Origin: Flavobacteriales bacterium
Lineage (GTDB): Bacteria > Bacteroidota > Bacteroidia > Flavobacteriales_D > Crocinitomicaceae
Length of the DNA: 64,000 nucleotides
NCBI GenBank assembly: GCA_018883325.1
Contig: VEQH01000001.1
Coordinates: forward strand, 1-64,000
Direction: 5' to 3'
Below are positions 10,952-49,425 of this stretch, one piece after another. Every line of letters begins with the position of its first letter. Within the stretch, counting starts at the first letter, position 1. The notes below the pieces were generated by a model that searched no databases, was not told the DNA's origin, and saw only the letters and a program-made list of their open reading frames with translations. A program made the translations under genes and the position numbers.

Positions 10952-12142
10952 ATGATTTACAATATATTTAAAAAAGAATTAATTGACACTTTGCGTGATC
11001 GTCGAACTTTGATGATGATGCTTGTTATTCCTATTTTAGTTTTCCCAATTACGCTCAATGTTTTTGTCGGAATTTCGGCATCATTCCAAGAAGAAGCTGC
11101 TGTTAAAACCTTAAAAGTGGGAATTGTTGGCGACAAAAATTCTTATTTCGCCCAACAGTTGAATGAAATCCCAAGTGAAATGGGAGCAAAAAAGTTGGTG
11201 TTTTTCAAAGATTCAGCTTCTTTAATGACTGAATTAAAAAAAGATAGCATTCAACTTGGAATTATAACTGAAAAGCAATTCAACCAATCGTTGGAGGCGC
11301 AACTACCCGCGCGAGTGACTTGGTACTTTGACGCTACTGAAATCGGAATCAACGAACGGGCAGAACAATATATGAAAATCATTGAAGTCAAGGCTCAACA
11401 AAAACGTTACGATGAACTGGAAGTTGATTTCCGAAAAGTTACGCCTTTTCAAACTTCCTATCAAAACATTGCAAGCGACAAAAAAATGGTTGGACAAATT
11501 GCTGGCGGATTCTTACCATACATTTTCATAGCTTTTGGCTTTATTGGCTGTATGTATCCTGCAATTGATTTGTTTACAGGAGAAAAAGAACGTGGAACGA
11601 TTGAAACACTTTTGACAACACCCGTAGCTCGTTGGCAAATTCTTTTCGGAAAAATGATGGTGGTTGTACTTTCAGGTTTGTTAGCTTCAAGTGCCGCCCT
11701 ACTCGGTTTGTTTATCTCTATTGAATTTCTAAACATTGTTGATAATCAAGAAATAATGAAAATCGTTCACGAAGTTTTAAGTCCACTGTTCATTGCTTCA
11801 ATGTTTAGTTTGTTGTTTCCTTTAACGATTTTCTTTGCCGGCGTTATGATTCCAATTGCGGTTTATGCGAAAACATTTAAAGAAGCGCAAAGTATCATTA
11901 CACCTTTGAATATCGTGATGGTTTTACCTGCGATGGTTGGTTTTTTCCCTGGTATCGAATTGAATTTTATAACGGCTTGTATTCCTGTTGTTAATGTTGT
12001 TTTGGCAACGAAAGAATTGATTTCAGGAACTTTAGAATTTGCTTACTTAGCTTTAAGTTTTGGTGTGATGGTGATGCTTGCGCTCGTTTCTGTTTTTGTT
12101 TCTTACAAGCAGTTTGGAAAAGAGACGAATGTGGTGAGTTGA
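10952..12142 (+). CDS. ABC-2 type permease (NatB type)
   Basis: A 396-residue membrane protein: one N-terminal helix (about 20-42), a roughly 150-residue extracytoplasmic domain, then a cluster of five or six helices with the ABC-2 landmark GEKERGTIETLLTTPV near residue 215. It forms the channel partner of the preceding ATPase. I start it at ATG 10952; the frame is open a little further upstream but only from TTG, and would overlap the ATPase stop. NatB is a sodium exporter in Bacillus; the substrate here is not evident. Confidence 0.87.
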   Translation: MIYNIFKKELIDTLRDRRTLMMMLVIPILVFPITLNVFVGISASFQEEAAVKTLKVGIVGDKNSYFAQQLNEIPSEMGAKKLVFFKDSASLMTELKKDSIQLGIITEKQFNQSLEAQLPARVTWYFDATEIGINERAEQYMKIIEVKAQQKRYDELEVDFRKVTPFQTSYQNIASDKKMVGQIAGGFLPYIFIAFGFIGCMYPAIDLFTGEKERGTIETLLTTPVARWQILFGKMMVVVLSGLLASSAALLGLFISIEFLNIVDNQEIMKIVHEVLSPLFIASMFSLLFPLTIFFAGVMIPIAVYAKTFKEAQSIITPLNIVMVLPAMVGFFPGIELNFITACIPVVNVVLATKELISGTLEFAYLALSFGVMVMLALVSVFVSYKQFGKETNVVS

Positions 12143-12163
12143 GGGATAGGGATTGGGACTGAG

Positions 12164-12231
12164 GATTACGGATTACAGATTGCGGATTACAGATTGCGGA
12201 TTACAGATTGCGGATTACAGATTGCAGATTA
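12164..12231. repeat. Heptad tandem repeat GATTRCR
   Basis: Nine full 7-bp units plus a partial one, alternating GATTACA and GATTGCG, begin 22 bp after the natB-like stop codon. The array lies between convergent genes. An AAAAATTG/CAATTTTT inverted repeat at 12231-12264 follows and may act as a terminator. Confidence 0.85.
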
Positions 12232-12285
12232 AAAATTGAAAGATTAATCTAATCAGCAATTTTTACAATCTGTAATTTTTTATCA

Positions 12286-14292
12286 CTAGCGAACAATATG
12301 GAAGAAACCGTTCTTCTCACCATTTTCATACGTCAATTTGTAGTAATAAACACCATCTTGATGATTTGTGCCATTCGCTGTTTTTCCGTCAAAAGGTTCA
12401 CCACCACTTACTTGCGTATAAATTAAATTTCCCCATCGGTCGAAGATATACATCGTGTATTCTTGGCAAGTTTTGAAATATTCGTCCAACTCTAAAACGT
12501 CATTTGAATTGTCATCATTTGGAGTGAAAACATTTGGAAACTCAAAGTCATCAAGTGTGTAAATTTTCAAAATATCAAGTTCTATTATACTCTCAGGAGA
12601 TTCACACCCATTCACGGTAACTGTTGCATAGTAATCTCCAATCGCTGGGACAGGAGCGGCAAAAGAAAAAGAATCTAATGTTGATGCAAAATTGTTTGGT
12701 CCTGTCCACGAAAAAGTTCCACCCGCCACAGCTTGCGCTTCAAAAACGGCAATATCATTTGGACATAAAAGCGGACTGTTGTTGGATAAAATTGGTGAAG
12801 CAGGAATTGGATAAACTATTAAGTTGTAAATAATAATAGAGTCACATCCTAAAGTCGTTTGTAAATCAAATTGATAAACACCCGTCGTACTAAGTGTTTG
12901 ACCATAATAAACAAATGGTTCGTCTTCGCAAATAGAAGTGTCGCGCGTAAATGAATAAGATGGATTAACGATTAAGGTTAAATCAATAATTGAATCGCAA
13001 CCCGCAACAGTTTGAAGGTTCAAAAAGTAATTTCCAGGTTGATTTAATTGCTGATTACCAAGCGTGTAAAACTCATTGGAGCAAATTGTTTCTGTAATAA
13101 CCAAATTGTAAACAGGATTGACAGTAATTGTTTTTGAAATCGTATCACTGTAACAACCATCAAACATTAAATAAACAGCATAATCACCAGATTGAATGGA
13201 ACTTACATTTGGAATTAGTGTGTCAAAACTATTGCTCACAAATCCATTTGGACCTGTCCAATAGCAAGTTGCACCAGTTAATGTGTCGATTGACAAAGCA
13301 AGTGTGTCACCTGCGCAAAGAGGTGTATTGTAACTAATTGTTGGAGCGGGAACTTGTGCAGGTTGACCGACAATTGTGTCCTTTGAAATAATACAACCTT
13401 CAAGGGATTTAATGTAAACGGTGATATTTCCACCTAAAATATTGCTAAAAGTACTATCGGCATAAAAGTTTGTTCCATTAATAGAATAGCTGATTTGATT
13501 TCCAACGCCAGAAATTGCAATGCTAGCATCTGCATAACCAAAACAACTTGCTTCAACGATTTGAACATCTGTAATTGCTGGTACTGAAATTATTGGTGCT
13601 TCAACATCAAATGTGGGTGTTCCTTGTGGACTTCCATCGTAAGTAGCATTTCCTTGTGCGTTGAGATAATCTCCATTGAATTTATAATAAGCCAAAAGTC
13701 CAGTTTGTGTTGTTGGATTTGGGAGATTATTCATGTTTTGCAAAATTTGAGATTGTGTCCGAACCACATTCCAAACCCTCACCTCATCAATAGATCCTCG
13801 AAAATGATCTGACGCTGGACTCGCTGACCTTGTACCAATCGCACTAATAAAATCATTTGTTACAATTGTTCCTGTGTGCGCACTATCGGCAACTAAACAA
13901 CCATTAATGTAAAGTTTGATAGAAGCACCATCATACGTTGCTGCAACGTGGTACCAAACATTATTTACAACTGGAATTGGACTTGTAACAACCTTAAAAC
14001 CTGAACTTGTCGTTATCTGAAAATTATTAGCTCTCAACAAATAATTTACATTACTCGGGTCTAGGTGTTTTGAAATAATATTTTGAACATTTCCGTTTGC
14101 ACCTCTTTTGTACAATGCCTCCACTGTTAGTTGTGTTCCGCTAACATCCAAATCTCCAATTGCTACCCAACGCAATGAAGGTGCTGGAAAAGTACTCAGT
14201 GAATTTTGTGAAAAAGAGAAATAACTTACAAAAAGAAAAGCGAGGAGAAAGCTAAATTTTGAAAGTATTGGAGAGAATATGTTTGATATCAT
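12286..14292 (-). CDS. LamG-domain surface protein with T9SS type B sorting domain
   Basis: A 668-residue secreted protein. A signal peptide (ending SYFSFSQ) precedes a LamG/concanavalin-like domain (about residues 40-230, with VWYHVAATYDG, LYINGCLVAD and GSIDEVRVWN). Ig-like repeats rich in CDSI-type motifs follow, then a C-terminal gliding-motility/CHU_C domain (FPNVFTPNDDNSNDVLELDE through YIFDRWGNLIY to DGVYYYKL). The last is a T9SS type B export and anchoring signal. Only TTG codons open the frame further upstream, so ATG 14292 is the likely start. It is probably a carbohydrate-binding adhesin. Confidence 0.87.
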   Translation of the reverse strand: MISNIFSPILSKFSFLLAFLFVSYFSFSQNSLSTFPAPSLRWVAIGDLDVSGTQLTVEALYKRGANGNVQNIISKHLDPSNVNYLLRANNFQITTSSGFKVVTSPIPVVNNVWYHVAATYDGASIKLYINGCLVADSAHTGTIVTNDFISAIGTRSASPASDHFRGSIDEVRVWNVVRTQSQILQNMNNLPNPTTQTGLLAYYKFNGDYLNAQGNATYDGSPQGTPTFDVEAPIISVPAITDVQIVEASCFGYADASIAISGVGNQISYSINGTNFYADSTFSNILGGNITVYIKSLEGCIISKDTIVGQPAQVPAPTISYNTPLCAGDTLALSIDTLTGATCYWTGPNGFVSNSFDTLIPNVSSIQSGDYAVYLMFDGCYSDTISKTITVNPVYNLVITETICSNEFYTLGNQQLNQPGNYFLNLQTVAGCDSIIDLTLIVNPSYSFTRDTSICEDEPFVYYGQTLSTTGVYQFDLQTTLGCDSIIIYNLIVYPIPASPILSNNSPLLCPNDIAVFEAQAVAGGTFSWTGPNNFASTLDSFSFAAPVPAIGDYYATVTVNGCESPESIIELDILKIYTLDDFEFPNVFTPNDDNSNDVLELDEYFKTCQEYTMYIFDRWGNLIYTQVSGGEPFDGKTANGTNHQDGVYYYKLTYENGEKNGFFHIVR

Positions 14293-40639: not shown

Positions 40640-41509
40640 CTATTCATCTTCCAATTGCCTTAAGAATATACTCCACCGACTCTTTTTCCATTTTCGTGAA
40701 AGCAAACCATGGTTCGACAAGCTCACCACAGGTTTCTTCCCTAAATCCTTCAAGGAAGCGCCGATGTGATATACCGTTTCTCCATCGATGATTAAAAAAC
40801 GATCGTGACTTTTTGCGAAAGCGTGCGCTTCGAAGCCACCGTATTGTTCGTTTGCTTTGTTGATGTCGAGTGTTAATTGTTGACTAGTAGATTTGGTGTA
40901 TAAAATGACCTTCACTTGATTTTCTTTTTTGGACAAATGCGTGAGGGTATTTTCATCTATGTAGTTATCAATCAGAATGATTTCTTTTTTTGCTCTTTTG
41001 ATGATACTTGAGAAAAACGCATACGCATCAAAGACTTGACCATCGAAGAAAATACCTTGATTGGGAACAAGTTGTGTGTTGATTTGGAGATCCAATTGGC
41101 CTAATTTTCTATTAATACTTTCTATATTGTCTTCTATTCGGTTCATTCGGTTGTTGATGGAATAACCTTTTAGTAAATAATCTTTTAGGACATTATTCGC
41201 CCATATTCTAAACTGAATACCTTTTTGAGATTTTACTCGGTATCCAATAGAAATAATCATATCTAAATTATAGTGTTCTGTTTGATAAACTTTGCCGTCA
41301 GAAGCAGTTGTCGCAAAATTTGCGACAACTGAAAGTCCAGCTAACTCTTCATTCAAAACGTTGTTAATATGCTTCCCAATTGTTTTTACATCTCTTTCAA
41401 ATAATAAGGACAATTGTTGTCTATTCAACCAAACCGTATCTCCATCTAACCTAACCTCAATATGTTCAGCCAATTCCCCTGATTGGTAAATTATAATTTC
41501 ATTTTTCAT
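40640..41509 (-). CDS. RhuM-family protein with PLD-like C-terminal module (frameshifted tail)
   Basis: A 289-residue protein. Residues 1-120 are RhuM/Fic-neighbour-like (KNEIIIYQSGELAEHIEV, VWLNRQQLSLLFERDVKT, the TEHYNLDMIISIGYRVKSQ signature). Then come a helical linker and a module beginning QGIFFDGQVFDAYAFFSSII, with SHDRFLIIDGETVYHIGAS resembling the HxK-like half of PLD nucleases. A 23-nt hairpin element at 40710-40732 shifts the frame, so the tail reads KKPVVSLSNHG instead of KKWFAFTKMEKES. ATG 41509 is chosen because translation further upstream is just the duplicated module out of context. Confidence 0.75.
   Translation of the reverse strand: MKNEIIIYQSGELAEHIEVRLDGDTVWLNRQQLSLLFERDVKTIGKHINNVLNEELAGLSVVANFATTASDGKVYQTEHYNLDMIISIGYRVKSQKGIQFRIWANNVLKDYLLKGYSINNRMNRIEDNIESINRKLGQLDLQINTQLVPNQGIFFDGQVFDAYAFFSSIIKRAKKEIILIDNYIDENTLTHLSKKENQVKVILYTKSTSQQLTLDINKANEQYGGFEAHAFAKSHDRFLIIDGETVYHIGASLKDLGKKPVVSLSNHGLLSRKWKKSRWSIFLRQLEDE
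40643..41060 (-). repeat. PLD-like module repeat, copy 1 (carries 23-nt insert)
   Basis: 418 bp matching 41537-41931 at roughly 90% identity by eye. The whole length difference of 23 nt is the hairpin insert at 40710-40732. It encodes the shared C-terminal module. Confidence 0.8.
40710..40732. repeat. 23-nt hairpin element inside a coding region
   Basis: TGGT, the core TCGACAAGCTC, ACCA, then CAGG. It is absent from copy 2 of the module, where AAACCA joins TTTCTTCC directly. An identical insert sits at the same place in copy 3 (42506-42528). Confidence 0.75.
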
Positions 41510-41536
41510 TATGTTCTTGTTTTTTTCAAATTCTTG

Positions 41537-41931
41537 TTCATCTTCCAATTGCCTTAAGAATATACTCCACCGACTCTTTTTCCATTTTGGTAAATGCAAA
41601 CCATTTCTTCCCTAAATCTTTCAAGGAAGCGCCAATGTGATATACCGTTTCTCCGTCAACAATTAAAAAACGATCGTGACTTTTTGCGAAGGTGTGAACT
41701 TCAAAGCCGCCGTATTGTTCATTTGCTTTGTTGATGTCGAGTGTTAATTGTTGACTAGTAGTTTTGGTGTATAAAAAGACCTTCACTTTATTTTCTTTTT
41801 TGGACAAATGCGTGAGTGTACTTTCATCAATATAATTGTCAATCAGAATTAATTCTTTTTTAGCCTTTTTGATGATACTTGAGAAAAACGCATACGCATC
41901 AAAGACTTGCCCATCGAAGAAAATACCTTGA
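41537..41931 (-). repeat. PLD-like module repeat, copy 2 (intact)
   Basis: The uninterrupted version of the module, encoding the C-terminal two thirds of the ORF6N-PLD protein. It is used here as the reference for the other two copies. Confidence 0.8.
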
Positions 41932-42404
41932 GTTGATTCAGGTATGCCTGCCTCAAGTGCCTTAAAAATTTGCTCTAATTTCTCATCTGTTTTCAATTGT
42001 TTTAATTCAACTTGATCTAGGCGTTGAAAAACACTCGCATTTTTGGTTAGAAAATGCCTCATTGCGACGAAAGCATGCATTATTTGAATACTAATTTGAA
42101 TGGCTAAATCACTTTTTAATATAGCAGAGAGCATTGCAACACCTTGTTCAGTAAATACATACGGATTTGATGAGCTATGTTTAAGTATTTCGAACCGGTC
42201 ACAATTTGTGACCAGTTTAATTTTCTCTTCTTCAGTTAATTGGAAACGAAATGCTTCAGGAAAGCGATTTACATTTCTTTTCACAGACTGATTCAACACT
42301 TTTGTTTCAACTAGATAAAGGTCTGCTAAATCACGGTCAATCATAACCTGAATACCCCTTATGGTAAAAATTCTATTTTCGATTTCAATTTTACTCAACT
42401 CCAT
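41538..42404 (-). CDS. ORF6N-domain protein with PLD-like C-terminal module
   Basis: A 288-residue protein. Residues 1-100 are an ORF6N DNA-binding domain (IFTIRGIQVMIDRDLADLY, VKRNVNRFPEAFRFQLT, YVFTEQGVAMLSAIL). A coiled-coil linker (125-150) follows, then the module shared with the RhuM protein (QGIFFDGQVFDAYAFFSSII ... SHDRFLIVDGETVYHIGAS, WFAFTKMEKESVEYIL). The same C-terminal unit joined to two different DNA-binding heads suggests modular exchange. It probably binds DNA; whether the PLD-like half is catalytic is uncertain because only one candidate motif is visible. Confidence 0.82.
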   Translation of the reverse strand: MELSKIEIENRIFTIRGIQVMIDRDLADLYLVETKVLNQSVKRNVNRFPEAFRFQLTEEEKIKLVTNCDRFEILKHSSSNPYVFTEQGVAMLSAILKSDLAIQISIQIMHAFVAMRHFLTKNASVFQRLDQVELKQLKTDEKLEQIFKALEAGIPESTQGIFFDGQVFDAYAFFSSIIKKAKKELILIDNYIDESTLTHLSKKENKVKVFLYTKTTSQQLTLDINKANEQYGGFEVHTFAKSHDRFLIVDGETVYHIGASLKDLGKKWFAFTKMEKESVEYILKAIGR

Positions 42405-42438
42405 TTTTTATCAATTTATCTTATTTTTCAAATTCCTG

Positions 42439-42596
42439 TTCATCTTCCAATTGCCTTAAGAATATACTCCACCGACTCTTTTTCCATTTTGGTAAATGCA
42501 AACCATGGTTCGACAAGCTCACCACAGGTTTCTTCCCTAAATCCTTCAAGGAAGCACCGATGTGATACACCATTTCTCCATCGATGATTAAAAAAC
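42439..42596 (-). pseudogene. Remnant of a third PLD-like module (3' end only)
   Basis: 158 bp matching the ends of the two neighbouring genes (final residues WFAFTKMEKESVEYILKAIG in one frame), with the same 23-nt hairpin insert. The match stops abruptly at about 42597, just before the DUF1016 gene end, so only the last 40 or so codons survive and the frame is broken. Confidence 0.78.
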
Positions 42597-42644
42597 CGAA
42601 ACTTTGTCCTTTCGTTTTGAATGTAGGTTAAAATAAAAATGGGT

Positions 42645-43769
42645 TTATTTTTCAAGTTTTTGTTCCTTTTCAATGGTTTTTAATGCTTCTGTTAGTTCCT
42701 CGAGTGCAGGCAACTCTGCTTTAATTTTTTCAGGTAACTCTTTATATCTGTATTCGCTCACGCCAATAGGCTTGTTTAAGTCTTTCAGAGCAAATTCTAC
42801 TTCAAAATTGTCTTTATTTTTGCAAAGTAATATGCCTATCGTTGCTTGATCGCTCTCGTCTTTTTCTAATTCGTTAATCGCGGAAACATAAAAGTTGAGC
42901 TTTCCAATAAATTCGGGTTGAAAATCCGTGAGCTTCAATTCAATAACGATGTAGCATTTTAGCTTCGTGTGGTAAAACAGCAAATCTGTTCTGTATTCTT
43001 TGTTACCAACTTTCAACAAGAATTGTCTTCCCATATAAGCAAAACCTTTTCCTAATTCTAATAAAAATTCAGAAATATGTTGCACTAACTTTTTCTCTAA
43101 ATCCTTTTCATGTGCTTTTTCCGAGAGCGCAATAAATTCAAAATTGTATGGGTCTTTTAGCAGTGCCTTTGCTAAATCACTTTGTGTTTCAGGAAGTGCC
43201 TGTTTAAAATTAGTGATTGCTCTTCCTTGTCTATTGTAGAGTTTTGTTTCGATTTGGTATTCTAGAACGGCTCTACTCCAATTGTTTTCTACCGTTTTTA
43301 AGACATAAAAAAGTGCTTCTTCGGTGTTTTTTATTTTTTGAACGATCAAAATGTGATGTCCCCATGGAATACTGGTAAATAATTCAAAATCAACTTGCCA
43401 CATTTGCGAAGCAACTTGTTTCGTAATTACAAATGGCTGTTCTTTATTTTGCGAAACAACTTGTTTCGCAATTGAATCAAAAGTTGTGGAATAAAATAAA
43501 CTCCATTGTCTAATCAATTCCAAATTGCGCTTAGAAAATCCTGAAATTGTTGGAAAATCGACCATTAAATCCTTACTTAATTGCCCTATGAAATTACTTC
43601 CCCACGTGGTGTTTTGTTGTTTGTTTATTATTTGAACGCCCAGCCCAAAGTAAAATGTTATCAATTCCTTATTGACATGTAAGGCTGCTTTAATTTGCGT
43701 GCTTCTAAAATTTTCTTTTAGTTGAGAAAGCCATTTGATATACTGTTCATCACGGATTAATTGACTCAT
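42645..43769 (-). CDS. DUF1016/YhcG-family PDDEXK nuclease
   Basis: A 374-residue protein. The N-terminal DUF1016 helical domain (to about residue 170) includes YFGLGVQI, WGSNFIGQLSKDL and FPTISGFSKRNLELIRQW. The C-terminal nuclease domain holds FIALSEKAHEKDLEKKLVQHI, YRTDLLFYHTKLKCYIVIELK (D...ExK core) and PEFIGKLNFYVSAI. Family members are predicted or shown to act in nucleic acid cleavage and phage-related conflicts. The gene lies exactly between an N-terminal RhuM remnant (43836-43921) and a C-terminal PLD-module remnant, as if it replaced the middle of that gene. Confidence 0.88.
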   Translation of the reverse strand: MSQLIRDEQYIKWLSQLKENFRSTQIKAALHVNKELITFYFGLGVQIINKQQNTTWGSNFIGQLSKDLMVDFPTISGFSKRNLELIRQWSLFYSTTFDSIAKQVVSQNKEQPFVITKQVASQMWQVDFELFTSIPWGHHILIVQKIKNTEEALFYVLKTVENNWSRAVLEYQIETKLYNRQGRAITNFKQALPETQSDLAKALLKDPYNFEFIALSEKAHEKDLEKKLVQHISEFLLELGKGFAYMGRQFLLKVGNKEYRTDLLFYHTKLKCYIVIELKLTDFQPEFIGKLNFYVSAINELEKDESDQATIGILLCKNKDNFEVEFALKDLNKPIGVSEYRYKELPEKIKAELPALEELTEALKTIEKEQKLEK

Positions 43770-45825: not shown

Positions 45826-46128
45826 TTAGAACATTGTAGAAAGATCAAATAAGTCTCCGTAATACCATAACCAATCCAATCCTTTGTTTCCATTTTCATA
45901 AACAAAAAATACTTTTTTTCTTCCTTGTTCATATGTTAGAAGTAATTCATTAACATCAAAAACTGCATCAATCTGAACTGAAAAATGTATTATTTTCAAC
46001 AAATTATCATTGTTATCATATATTTCAACAATTCTTTTTTCAAAGTCCAAATTTATTCTTGATCCTTTGGTTTTTTCATAAAACTCAATAAAAGGAATTG
46101 ATTGATATTCGTTATTTTCATTGTTCAT
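45826..46128 (-). CDS. Hypothetical protein
   Basis: A 100-residue acidic protein (IPFIEFYEKTKGSRINLDFE, VFFVYENGNKGLDWLWYYG). It has no signal peptide, helix bundle or recognised motif. It lies 68 bp downstream of the PLD-DnaJ gene on the same strand and so may be the last member of that operon or an independent immunity-type small protein. Codon use and composition match its neighbours. Real expression is uncertain. Confidence 0.55.
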   Translation of the reverse strand: MNNENNEYQSIPFIEFYEKTKGSRINLDFEKRIVEIYDNNDNLLKIIHFSVQIDAVFDVNELLLTYEQGRKKVFFVYENGNKGLDWLWYYGDLFDLSTMF

Positions 46129-46196: not shown

Positions 46197-47555
46197 TCAC
46201 ATTTCAAGTTGCAATTCTTGAAGTTCTTGTTTTAATTTTTCTTTTATATTCATAAAGTAGTCTCCCCAATCGGTTATTTCAATTATTGTGTTGAACGTCT
46301 CACTTTCCTTAATGGCAATAATTTCTGCTTCAAGAATTTTAATTTGTTTTTTTAATTTAGCAATTGCAGCTTTCAATAAGTCTTTCTCTTGAACAGTTTC
46401 AGATTTAGTTTTGAAGTAATTTCCAATTCCAAGTTCATCTAGTATATCTGATACCTTTTTTAAGTTATTTGCATCATAAGCTTGTTTTAACTCAATAAAA
46501 ATTCTTTGGGCTGCTTCTTTAAATTCATCATCTACTTTGTCAGGATGGCATAAAACAGTTGCCTTCCTAAATTTCTTTTTCAATTCTAATTTTTGCTCTT
46601 CCGTTAATTCATAGATTTCTTTTTCCATTTCGATGTCAATCTGTTCACGATACTGCTTTTCATCATTTTCAGCTTCTTCAAACTTTGATTTGTCTGATTT
46701 GAATTTTAGTTTTCGTAACTTCAAGATGTCAAGAATAATCTCCCCTAATTCGATCGAATGTCGATGATGAAATTCCGAAAGCAATTTTTCAAGTTCTATC
46801 TTTTCATTGTCAAAGCCGTTAAGTTGGTTTTCTAAATTCTTAATTTCTAATTTAAGGGCTGCGATTTCGGGGTCAATCCAAATTGATAGCTGTTGATTTT
46901 TGGAAATAAAAATTTGAATTTTATTGATTGCTGAACTAAATTCTTCTTTTATAATATCTTCAATAATATCTTGTAAATCAGAATTGAAATCATACTCCTT
47001 TAGTTTCGAGCTTTCTTTGTTTAATTCTTCAATATCTTCAAGTAGTATGTAGTTTTTGAGAATTTCAAGACGTTTAATTATTTTGTTTAATGGAAATACA
47101 ATTTCTTCATTTACTGTATCTGGATAGTATTGTCTTCGAATATTATTGAATTCAAAAATGAATTGTTCTGCTAATGTCGTGTCATTAGTTGTAATAATTA
47201 CATTTTCAAAATTGCTTTCAGCTTTATAGCTCCAATTGTATGAGCCAGTAATAACTGTGCTGTAATCAATGACGCAAAATTTGTTATGCATTAATTCTGT
47301 ATCACCGTTGCCAATTTTATAAATTTTTGATTTGTCCGTAAGCAACTGCTCAAAATCAATTGATGAGTTAAGGTTAATGTTGTCATTTGAAATAATGAGA
47401 GAAACAGTGCAGCCATTTCTTGCTTTATTTACTAATTCATTAAAAAGATTTTTGTTAGTAAACCAAGCCACGGCAATAAAAATAGATTTCTCTGCTTTAC
47501 TTATTTCTTGCTGAATTCTTTCCGCTATATTTTCAAATACTGCATCTGTTTGCAT
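46197..47555 (-). CDS. PLD-like nuclease fused to a DnaJ-like domain
   Basis: A 452-residue protein. Residues 1-150 are a PLD-type domain: the HxK motif is degenerate but present (LMHNKFCVIDYSTVITGSYN, His90/Lys92/Asp97). Residues 150-300 are helical, with coiled coil about 230-265. Residues about 315-375 resemble a J domain, with His337-Pro338-Asp339 in ATVLCHPDK followed by AAQRIFIELKQAYD. The tail (390-452) is coiled coil. A PLD nuclease carrying its own J domain is unusual and suggests recruitment of Hsp70/DnaK. The start ATG overlaps the TPR stop by one base (TAATG), which indicates coupling. Confidence 0.83.
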   Translation of the reverse strand: MQTDAVFENIAERIQQEISKAEKSIFIAVAWFTNKNLFNELVNKARNGCTVSLIISNDNINLNSSIDFEQLLTDKSKIYKIGNGDTELMHNKFCVIDYSTVITGSYNWSYKAESNFENVIITTNDTTLAEQFIFEFNNIRRQYYPDTVNEEIVFPLNKIIKRLEILKNYILLEDIEELNKESSKLKEYDFNSDLQDIIEDIIKEEFSSAINKIQIFISKNQQLSIWIDPEIAALKLEIKNLENQLNGFDNEKIELEKLLSEFHHRHSIELGEIILDILKLRKLKFKSDKSKFEEAENDEKQYREQIDIEMEKEIYELTEEQKLELKKKFRKATVLCHPDKVDDEFKEAAQRIFIELKQAYDANNLKKVSDILDELGIGNYFKTKSETVQEKDLLKAAIAKLKKQIKILEAEIIAIKESETFNTIIEITDWGDYFMNIKEKLKQELQELQLEM

Positions 47556-48691
47556 TATTTTTTATTTAAAAAATTTATAAGTAACTTCAAATTAAGTTTT
47601 GAACTTGTGTTTGTAGTAAAATTCTTTAATTTAGAATTTGTATTTTCTAAATTATCATTAAAAGAAGTATTTTCAGGATCAATAATTATGGCAATAGAAT
47701 AATCATTTTTTGCGCCTAAAAAGTCACTTAAGTAAAATTTAGCACAACCTCTTCCATTATAACTTTCAGCTAATTGGGGATTAAGTTCAATTGCTTTAGA
47801 ATGATCTTCAATTGCACCTATAAAATCATTCATAAACAATTTAACATTACCTCTTCCATTATAACTTTCAGCTAATTGGGGATTAAGTTCAATTGCTTTG
47901 GAATAATCTTCAATTGCACCTGTAAAATCATTCATAAAAAATTTAGCATAACCTCTTCTATTATAACTTTCAGCTAATTGGGGATTAAGTTCAATTGCTT
48001 TGGAATAATCTTCAATTGCACCTTGATAATCTTTCAAGATAGATTTAACTTTTCCTCGTGCTGAGTAAGCATCTATATAAAAGGGATCAAGTTCAATTGC
48101 TTTTGAAAAATCTTCAATTGCTCCGAAGTAATCTTTTAGGTAATATTTCACTTTACCCCGTCCTTTAAATGCATGTGAATATTCTGAATCAAGTTCGATT
48201 GCTTTTGAAAAATCATTTATAGCACCAAAGTAATCTTTCAATCTTGTTTTAACATTTCCTCTACCGTTATATGCAAATTTGTATCTAGGGTCAATATCTA
48301 TTGCTTTGCTATAATATTCAATAGCCCCATTATAATCTTTGAGTTTATTTTTACAAATACCGAGCATTTCAATTGTTATAATATGGTTTGGATTTATTTT
48401 TAAAACTTCAAAAAACAAGTCTATTGCCTCTAAATAATCACTTTGCTTTTTAACTTTAAAAGAAAATTTCGATTTTTTTCGATAACAAGATACACTCTCA
48501 AGTAAGTATAAATGATTTTTATTTGAATTTGTTATTTGCTTACTATTTATTAAATTAAAAGCATTATTAAAAATATCGCTTATTCTACCAAATAAAATTT
48601 TATTAGTTGTTGAAAATGATTTTTTTACGAGCGTTAGGCTTGTTGAGTCAATTGTTATTATTGAACAATTATTTTCATTCTTATTTTCCAT
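47555..48691 (-). CDS. TPR-repeat protein
   Basis: A 378-residue protein. After a 90-residue N-terminal region without clear homology, about eight tetratricopeptide repeats of 34 residues run from roughly 85 to 350 (DYxGAIEDYSKAIELxPxxAxSYNGRGxAK type). It has no signal peptide and is probably a cytoplasmic scaffold. Three repeats are almost identical at DNA level (102-bp period, 47730-48040), a sign of recent expansion. ATG 48691 lies 2 bp after the upstream gene stop; the frame also opens with TTG at 48697. It forms the middle of a three-gene operon. Confidence 0.85.
   Translation of the reverse strand: MENKNENNCSIITIDSTSLTLVKKSFSTTNKILFGRISDIFNNAFNLINSKQITNSNKNHLYLLESVSCYRKKSKFSFKVKKQSDYLEAIDLFFEVLKINPNHIITIEMLGICKNKLKDYNGAIEYYSKAIDIDPRYKFAYNGRGNVKTRLKDYFGAINDFSKAIELDSEYSHAFKGRGKVKYYLKDYFGAIEDFSKAIELDPFYIDAYSARGKVKSILKDYQGAIEDYSKAIELNPQLAESYNRRGYAKFFMNDFTGAIEDYSKAIELNPQLAESYNGRGNVKLFMNDFIGAIEDHSKAIELNPQLAESYNGRGCAKFYLSDFLGAKNDYSIAIIIDPENTSFNDNLENTNSKLKNFTTNTSSKLNLKLLINFLNKK
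47730..48040 (-). repeat. 102-bp tandem repeats in the TPR gene
   Basis: The segment containing AACTTTCAGCTAATTGGGGA begins at 47761, 47863 and 47965, exactly 102 bp apart, with only a few differences between copies. Each unit encodes one 34-residue TPR. Confidence 0.8.
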
Positions 48692-48693
48692 AT

Positions 48694-49425
48694 TCAATGT
48701 GAAAGTAAAAAGCGGTAAAAAGTATTTGTAAAATTGAAAATAAATTCGATTTCAGAGTGCTTTACTTTGTCGTGATGTTTGACATAGTTATTCTGATATT
48801 TCCCAAATATTTCGATTAGACGTAGAAAGATGTTGCTTATTTCTGAAGAAATACCTTTATCTTTTTGAAATTTCCCTAATAATGGAATTTGATTTTCTAA
48901 TGTTTTTTCATTTCCTAGTAATGAACGAAGAAAATACTCAACTGATAACCTAAGGTCATCTAAAATATGTCGTTCATTGTTTCCGCTATTAAAATCTTTT
49001 AACGCCCTATTGTAAAGTTTATAAGCTTCGGGAAATACTTCTAGCCCTTTTAAAGTGTCTGCAATTAGGCTTTCATCTATTTCTTTAGATGCAATTGCTT
49101 TTGCATAATTGGGATTCATAATATCAACTTTTCCCCCACCGATTATTGTTCTAATATCTTTTACTTCGTTAGGAAATGTTTCTTCTGCCGACTTTAGAAA
49201 AATTTCAAATAAATGGTGTTTTATATCATCGGGGTATGAAAGAAGAATGTCTTTGAAGTAATCTTTTTTTGTTGTGCTTTTTTCTTCGTTTCGCCTTTTT
49301 TCAATATAGTCATTATAGTCAAGTAAGTCAGGGTCAACTTGCTGAACTGTCTTAATAAATTGTGAACCTTTATAACCATCAAGGAATTTATAAAGTCTTC
49401 TGTATGCTGCTGTCCAGTCTGTCAT
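48694..49425 (-). CDS. Abi/HEPN-like helical protein, first gene of a three-gene operon
   Basis: A 243-residue, almost entirely helical protein. The C-terminal 100 residues (RHILDDLRLSVEYFLRSLLG, LLGKFQKDKGISSEI, KYQNNYVKHHDKVKHSEIEF) resemble the abortive-infection C-terminal/HEPN-type helical domain in which an N-x-KH-like motif is conserved. The N-terminal half has no recognised family. No membrane segment. It starts the cluster that continues with the TPR and PLD-DnaJ genes without gaps. The HEPN relationship is a visual judgement and needs a profile search. Confidence 0.7.
   Translation of the reverse strand: MTDWTAAYRRLYKFLDGYKGSQFIKTVQQVDPDLLDYNDYIEKRRNEEKSTTKKDYFKDILLSYPDDIKHHLFEIFLKSAEETFPNEVKDIRTIIGGGKVDIMNPNYAKAIASKEIDESLIADTLKGLEVFPEAYKLYNRALKDFNSGNNERHILDDLRLSVEYFLRSLLGNEKTLENQIPLLGKFQKDKGISSEISNIFLRLIEIFGKYQNNYVKHHDKVKHSEIEFIFNFTNTFYRFLLSH

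Follow-up and report, generated by a model that had tools for sequence, protein, structure and literature searches.

A PLD-J effector gene and its adjacent adaptor-repeat genes: a candidate modular sensor-nuclease conflict system

In the first 64,000 nucleotides of contig VEQH01000001.1 from a Flavobacteriales bacterium (assembly GCA_018883325.1; this whole stretch is hereafter the window), a minus-strand gene encodes a protein, here called PLD-J, that joins an N-terminal PLD (HKD) domain to a J-like domain with an HPD motif. Judged from sequence comparison, PLD-J and the adjacent gene for an adaptor-repeat protein form a two-gene core. The body of the partner protein behind its adaptor is variable, and sensor cassettes have been exchanged between genomes, including at the window's own locus. 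We propose, with a probability of about 0.58, that the pair is a modular sensor-nuclease conflict system in which a docked sensor would switch a PLD nuclease, with DnaK acting via the HPD motif. An earlier note on this DNA had suggested a regulated nuclease system, perhaps chaperone-gated, and this still appears to be the best reading of the sequences.

PLD-J and its pairing with the adaptor gene

As the earlier note had described, three open reading frames (ORFs) lie on the minus strand, with a TAATG overlap of the repeat-gene stop and the PLD-J start and a spacing of 2 bases between the stop of a 243-residue gene and the ATG of the repeat gene (Table 1). The PLD and HPD motifs were likewise found as noted, and both hold in profile and structural model. 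Pfam detects PLDc_2 in residues 15-139 of PLD-J (E 1e-23). In an alignment of 31 PLD-J sequences, H90 is kept in 31, K92 in 30 and D97 in 31. VIA structure comparison, whose tables span residues 1-149, gives Nuc (1byr) as the best match to the PLD domain (Z 19.9, root-mean-square deviation 2.2 over 141), followed by NucT (Z 19.1) and Zucchini/MitoPLD (Z 18.5). By its HxKx4D motif and modelled fold, PLD-J is a member of the PLD (HKD) superfamily, and nuclease activity is predicted.

The Pfam DnaJ family matches residues 322-361 with E 8.4e-6 and 26.2 bits, slightly below the curated cut-off of 27.8, and the J domain of auxilin matches the same part in a PDB profile search (E 3.5e-4). HPD, K326 and R330 are each present in all 31 aligned proteins. 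The AlphaFold2 model (mean pLDDT 84.3, pTM 0.49) consists of an N-terminal PLD domain, a helical region, a long coiled coil and then helices on both sides of HPD (319-336 and 343-361). Alignment and model place HPD between helices II and III, with helix II following the J consensus, and DnaK/Hsp70 binding is predicted.

The partner protein begins with an adaptor of about 35 residues, which matches no Pfam family among those listed. An adaptor profile built from 29 segments (alignment A5) detects the window adaptor with E 1.1e-12, and with E 2e-5 when the window row is left out. The first survey, a single scan of genome contigs, yielded at least 33 PLD-J loci and, together with the window, L053, L054, L056 and L107, a set of 38. 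According to the record titles, these are mostly from Bacteroidota, and also from Ignavibacteria, Moraxella, Proteobacteria, Desulfuromonadales, Deltaproteobacteria and Anaerolineaceae. When the rows of each tested locus were removed from the profile (leave-one-locus-out, E<=0.01), a same-strand adaptor gene adjoined PLD-J in 29 of the 38 loci. Two of the remaining nine have weak adaptors (L107, E 0.013; L053, E 0.16). In L087 and L102 the contig start truncates what by eye is a TPR or LRR gene, and in L086 the 429 upstream bases left contain a TPR fragment (by eye) with stops before it; no adaptor was seen in these three. L100 gave no adaptor match, with 119 downstream bases remaining. The last three of the nine are L089, L092 and L098, which are taken up below among the exceptions. 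Not every locus is independent: L075/L076 and L100/L101 are near-duplicates, with about 98% DNA identity.

At a threshold of E<=1e-20, searches through 395 genomes of the class and 299 of the order returned 18 regions. Fifteen were new, and three were earlier loci found again (L176, L177 and L190, identical to L089, L088 and L099). An adaptor gene adjoins the PLD-J family gene in 11 of the 15 new loci (E<=1e-3), or in 11 of 17 further loci once the weaker hits G306/L059 and G794/L193 are counted. The six without an adaptor comprise five beside vWA-type genes (L185, L188, L192, L059 and L193) and L189. In total 58 loci were compared, 55 of them distinct. Chance adjacency of adaptor gene and PLD-J was considered and rejected. 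Up to four adaptor genes stand in series beside one effector gene (L191).

The own genome contains two full-length PLD-J genes in total, 56% identical to each other, and two credible adaptors (E 6.7e-13 and 1.1e-12; next hit 0.23), each beside one of them. The gene preceding the paralogue encodes leucine-rich repeats, and its first 40 or so residues are similar to those of the window TPR protein. Among 395 phylum genomes, with up to 19 candidates scored per genome, six had an adaptor match at E<=0.01. Three of these are the genomes in which full-length PLD-J was found (the own genome, G255 and G211); the matches in the other three (G436, G086 and G402) do not fall where a plausible ORF begins. 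The search also covered another 18 records, 16 of them genomes and 2 viral: 18 matches came from 15 of the genomes, and all coincide with sensor genes of PLD-J loci, with coordinates matched by hand and contig identity assumed. The profile found no adaptor in the L098 genome or the L053 contig, and one, its own, in the L107 contig. Across the genomes covered by the profile search, credible adaptors occur only beside PLD-J. The family also reaches viral records: full-length PLD-J is present on two IMG/VR contigs, one of which has an LRR gene followed by PLD-J. In one other genome, PLD-J precedes a gyrase-C-type propeller gene with a similar, adaptor-like start. The 36 genomes of the same genus, some incomplete, contained no full-length PLD-J match.

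Four loci (L179-L182) encode J proteins of 299-311 residues that lack the PLD domain and retain their adaptor genes. This argues from four loci that docking, if any, takes place on the helical, coiled-coil or J part. Across 22 loci, adaptor and PLD-J distances correlate (0.52; 0 of 2000 permutations), as neighbouring genes with a shared history may do, and the correlation does not resolve a docking segment. Twenty positions are kept in 40 supposed adaptor-type proteins (counting L086, L087 and L102, where no adaptor was visible) and lost in three triad-type proteins, i.e., those linked to vWA, PP2C-like and kinase-like genes. Nine of the 20 lie within residues 229-311, which gives no more than a hint of where the adaptor might bind.

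Sensor bodies, cassette exchange and neighbouring genes

Pfam TPR_1 matches the window repeat protein in eight stretches (E 8.4e-54), in agreement with the earlier note, which had recognized the TPR protein and missed its nature as an exchangeable sensor with a common N-terminal adaptor. The 94% matches among the best 2.8 copies of its TPR array suggest recent duplication. Behind the adaptor of the various loci, we found seven Pfam families: TPR, LRR, WD40, PQQ-type propeller, gyrase-C propeller, WG repeats and Fib_succ_major. The sensor bodies of L094, L095 and L103 have no Pfam match. By eye, these three and the sensors of L128 and L180 are helical with W-rich repeats.

Sensor bodies differ even between close relatives. 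The 300 pairs formed by the 25 loci compared are not independent. In 104 of them the PLD-J proteins share 60% identity or more, with no sensor match in 76; at 80% identity or more, 9 of 11 pairs have none. The window, L077 and L175 have in common the 243-residue gene and the first ~50-100 nucleotides of the sensor gene (84.6-87.4% DNA identity), and their PLD-J genes are 79.4-81.1% identical. Their sensor bodies, TPR in the window, WD40 in L077 and LRR-like in L175 (where the LRR matches lie below Pfam cut-offs), give no DNA alignment with each other. Similarly, L074 and L075 are 96.9% identical over a kinase gene and the adaptor start and 93.2% over PLD-J, with a Fib_succ_major body in one and a WD40 body in the other. 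L074, L075 and L077 come from metagenome assemblies. L076, an isolate record, has the L075 form, with 98% identity over 3.9 kb. These comparisons show that sensor cassettes have been exchanged between genomes. The kinase upstream of the L074 sensor (L074:361-1740) has a sub-threshold match to Ribonuc_2-5A, of RNase L/Ire1 type, at residues 265-337 (E 0.0041, 17.7 vs 23.3 bits). This kinase and the 243-residue protein do not match each other.

The earlier note had counted the 243-residue gene as part of a three-gene operon. The three genes are real and the order of the last two is conserved across loci; the 243-residue gene is an accessory and not part of the core. It adjoins PLD-J in 3 of 58 loci (55 distinct), those of the window, L077 and L175, and other members of its family are found without PLD-J, so that a fixed three-gene operon is rejected. 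The family was found in 7 of 296 phylum genomes, the own included, and the neighbourhoods of six relatives (L066-L071) contain no PLD-J. Plasmid and phage collections gave one partial match each, and the viral scan with the 243-residue protein alone gave nothing. On the viral contig L132 (3683-5964), a relative of the 243-residue gene is followed by a gene that by eye starts like a SEFIR/TIR domain.

The 243-residue protein has no Pfam family at E<=1 and matches the PADLOC phage-defence candidate PDC-S32 (E 1.7e-39). VIA comparison of its low-confidence model (mean pLDDT 63.5), tabulated for residues 104-243, ranks the HEPN protein 2hsb first (Z 9.4) and the HEPN toxin 7ae8 third (Z 7.0), in a range where chance matches of helical bundles are frequent; the best Foldseek match has E 2.2. 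When the family was checked for Rx4-6H, we found a YQNNYVKH segment without R, the H being kept in five of five rows. An Abi/HEPN-like fold, as in the earlier note, is no more than plausible.

Two further genes had been named as possible members. The 351-residue gene upstream is rejected: it has no Pfam family above cut-off, and none of the 57 other loci contains a relative. The 100-residue gene also has no Pfam family above cut-off. Its sole match among the 58 loci is to residues 194-272 of a 335-residue gene (L180:8223-9230; 33% over 80 residues), which adjoins the PLD-less J protein of L180, and it may be an occasional accessory.

Pfam and PADLOC scans of ten window genes (41.5-50.7 kb) place the module near NTP_transf_2, HepT-like, KilA-N, ORF6N and YhcG/DUF1016 genes (Pfam). 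The ORF6N-type genes at 40640-42673 appear by eye to be tandem partial duplicates with a near-identical C-terminal segment in common. Gene spacing alone suggests a single transcript, since promoter-like matches (33 vs a shuffle mean of 31.7) and terminator-like matches (1 vs 1.6) are at chance level.

Table 1. Coordinates of the features discussed (window positions unless a locus is given).
Feature	Position	Strand	Basis or remark
PLD-J ORF, 452 residues	46197-47555	minus	ORF list
PLD (HKD) domain; His90, Lys92, Asp97	47121-47555	minus	Alignment and VIA
J-like domain; HPD at residues 337-339	46416-46622	minus	Pfam, profile, alignment
PLD-J layout	Residues: PLD ~1-145; helical 146-228; coiled coil 229-311; J-like ~312-380; C-terminal helices 381-452		Pfam, 31-sequence alignment, PDB profile, AlphaFold2 model, structure matches
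Repeat gene (adaptor and TPR sensor)	47555-48691 from ATG	minus	Mechanical ORF 47555-48697, 380 residues from TTG
N-terminal adaptor of the sensor, ~35 residues	48572-48682	minus	Profile A5
Tandem 102-bp repeats coding TPR units	47734-48261	minus	94% matches in the best 2.8 copies; 72-84% in wider rows
243-residue gene	48694-49425	minus	Accessory, helical, PDC-S32 family; C-terminal half possibly HEPN-like
100-residue gene	45826-46128	minus	68 nucleotides after PLD-J
vWA-linked loci	L185:6872-13128; L188:6821-13066; L192:6294-12540; L059:9489-12072; L193:6697-11252
DUF6804-like genes	L079:7112-7417; L078:4589-4921; L080:7518-7850; L185:13314-13604; L188:6482-6805; L192:5738-6064; L055:5793-6089

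Proposed mechanism and alternative readings

In the proposed conflict system, the repeat protein would be the sensor, whose variable body, TPR in the window, recognizes a foreign or damaged molecule, and the conserved adaptor would dock on the helical, coiled-coil or J part of PLD-J. PLD-J would be the effector, with a single-HKD domain of the Nuc/NucT/Zucchini type. Such domains form one active site from two subunits. The coiled coil may hold PLD-J as a dimer or oligomer. Once a ligand is bound, the complex would rearrange and bring PLD domains into pairs that cleave nucleic acid, with the result that the invader is restricted or the host cell killed. The HPD motif would recruit DnaK/Hsp70 to hold the complex off or to reset it, and this recruitment could stand in for the NTPase switch of NLR-like systems. 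Sensor exchange, the viral contigs, patchy occurrence, the PDC-S32 neighbour and the alternative coupling to vWA, PP2C and kinase genes indirectly point to a role in defence.

A more specific version is tentative, and we would sooner doubt than accept it: PLD-J would serve an immune receptor without an NTPase, in which a dock of ~35 residues joins seven sensor families (at least five kinds) to one nuclease, whole sensor cassettes are exchanged by recombination in the interval from adaptor to effector gene, and the J domain makes DnaK the ATP-driven switch. If true, this would be a natural plug-and-play receptor, in which swapping one gene segment alters specificity while effector and docking site stay constant, and it would do without the NACHT/STAND or MoxR/GTPase switch found in other modular immune systems of bacteria. 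The HPD motif, kept in all 31 aligned proteins, would offer a direct handle on whether a general chaperone gates immunity, and the adaptor profile a means to find sensors of unknown specificity across many genomes.

Several observations weigh against a conflict system of this kind. At the level of single loci, PLD-J carries in-frame stops in L092 and is an orphan in L089; in L098 (6927-8348) its partner, with a 4-nucleotide overlap, is Prim-Pol/DEDD-exonuclease-like and has no adaptor by the profile; L189 matches in part and lies in a different gene setting. The A5 row L105 is on the opposite strand, not adjacent to PLD-J, and is missed when its own locus is left out. Most searched loci are themselves A5 rows, so that adaptor matches there arise partly by construction and the informative part of the specificity scan is the absence elsewhere; near-identical siblings (L075 for L076, L094 for L101) also remained in the leave-one-locus-out profile. 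Concerning the effector, the pTM of 0.49 means that the model does not give the relative domain arrangement, and Foldseek ranks FAM83B first for PLD-J, PLD folds occurring as non-nucleases too. L187 has KPD for HKD in the alignment, i.e., the H is lost, and L192, which lies outside the 31-sequence alignment, has SPN for HPD. Finally, five family members lack an adaptor and stand before vWA, PP2C-like and kinase-like genes: L185, L188 and L192, and, without the PLD domain, L059 and L193. VWA in L192 and kinase and DUF4407 in L185 have Pfam support; the remaining triad genes are below cut-off or were assigned by eye, as in L188, L059 and L193. This linkage is a second wiring of the same effector, without adaptor sensors.

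The own genome also has a PLD-only relative (L055:6086-13887, contig C99), which lies by eye amid kinase-like, PP2C-like and vWA genes; for the gene at 11563-12834, Pfam does not support PP2C. Two L055 proteins end alike, with SKANSIFDKF and SKAKNIFDKF. Seven loci, in adaptor and triad settings alike, encode near their PLD-J family genes a small membrane protein, which Pfam identifies as DUF6804 in L079.

Two alternatives seem to us improbable to the same degree. In the first, the pair is a toxin-antitoxin or addiction module with PLD-J as toxin and the adaptor protein as its dedicated inhibitor, the variety of sensors reflecting release triggers or drift. The tightly overlapping genes, the toxin-antitoxin-type genes nearby and the copies on viral contigs would suit such a module. 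An inhibitor is hard to reconcile with PLD-less J proteins that keep their adaptor partners and with up to four adaptor genes per effector gene (L191); known antitoxins rarely have so many recognition families behind one segment. In the second, PLD-J is the output of a Ter-like signalling or stress-response complex, driven by adaptor proteins or by vWA/PP2C/kinase triads, and has no role in defence. This draws on the five triad-linked loci and on the DUF6804-like proteins in both settings, whereas sensor cassette exchange in close relatives suggests diversifying recognition of foreign molecules, the patchy presence, with no full-length match in the same-genus genomes, speaks against a stress-response complex, and TerY-P-like modules with an OB-fold kinase are themselves reported as antiphage systems in PMC11090510. 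Least probable of all is a chaperone or scaffold machine, in which a non-catalytic, FAM83-like PLD domain accompanies a J domain that with DnaK remodels clients brought by the repeat protein: HPD is invariant in the alignment while the PLD domain is missing from some members, the H of HKD is gone in L187 and FAM83B comes first in Foldseek, and against it stand the near-invariant H, K and D and the Nuc endonuclease as best VIA match.

Comparison with known systems

We found no description of the PLD-J/adaptor pairing in the open-licence literature, among the matches listed, and the module is not described in the parts of PMC7159879, PMC8195603, PMC11090510 and PMC12839542 that were accessible. 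DISARM was considered and rejected: there is no DrmA helicase or DrmB (DUF1998) among the ten genes scanned, and DrmC models match the PLD part only. DISARM DrmC, Nuc/NucT and Zucchini share with PLD-J a single-HKD PLD domain, which in PLD-J is fused to a coiled coil and a J domain.

The module resembles the TerY-P triad of vWA, PP2C and Ser/Thr kinase in that L185, L188, L192, L059 and L193 lie directly upstream of such genes, and that the PLD-only relative in L055 stands by eye among kinase-like and vWA genes. It differs in the window, where no kinase, phosphatase or vWA was found among the ten genes scanned and an adaptor sensor takes their place.

As in the EAD-linked conflict systems, judging from the accessible parts of their descriptions (Kaur et al., 2020, PMC7159879; 2021, PMC8195603), a small non-catalytic segment joins variable parts to effectors. 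In the main texts of both, the term 'PLD' has 0 occurrences. In EAD systems the same small domain is present on sensor and effector; the best match of the adaptor profile to the 31 PLD-J proteins has E 0.011 (6.5 bits), and with no adaptor found in the effector, the pairing is not homotypic. EAD systems also have a central NTPase/GTPase switch; here, no NTPase family is above cut-off among the ten window genes, and none is among the Pfam matches listed for 24 adaptor-linked sensors and L098. The window TPR protein has a sub-threshold TPR-S match (E 0.033, 15.2 vs 27.6 bits).

NLR/Avs-type receptors likewise have exchangeable recognition domains; the window scan lists no NACHT/STAND domain. For one NACHT protein, bNACHT25, PMC12169576 reports that DnaJ is needed and takes part in phage sensing. 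A J protein involved in sensing is common ground, whereas here the J domain is part of the effector. An effector with exchangeable sensors is a known idea; this module stands out in that it apparently has no NTPase and that its effector contains a J domain.

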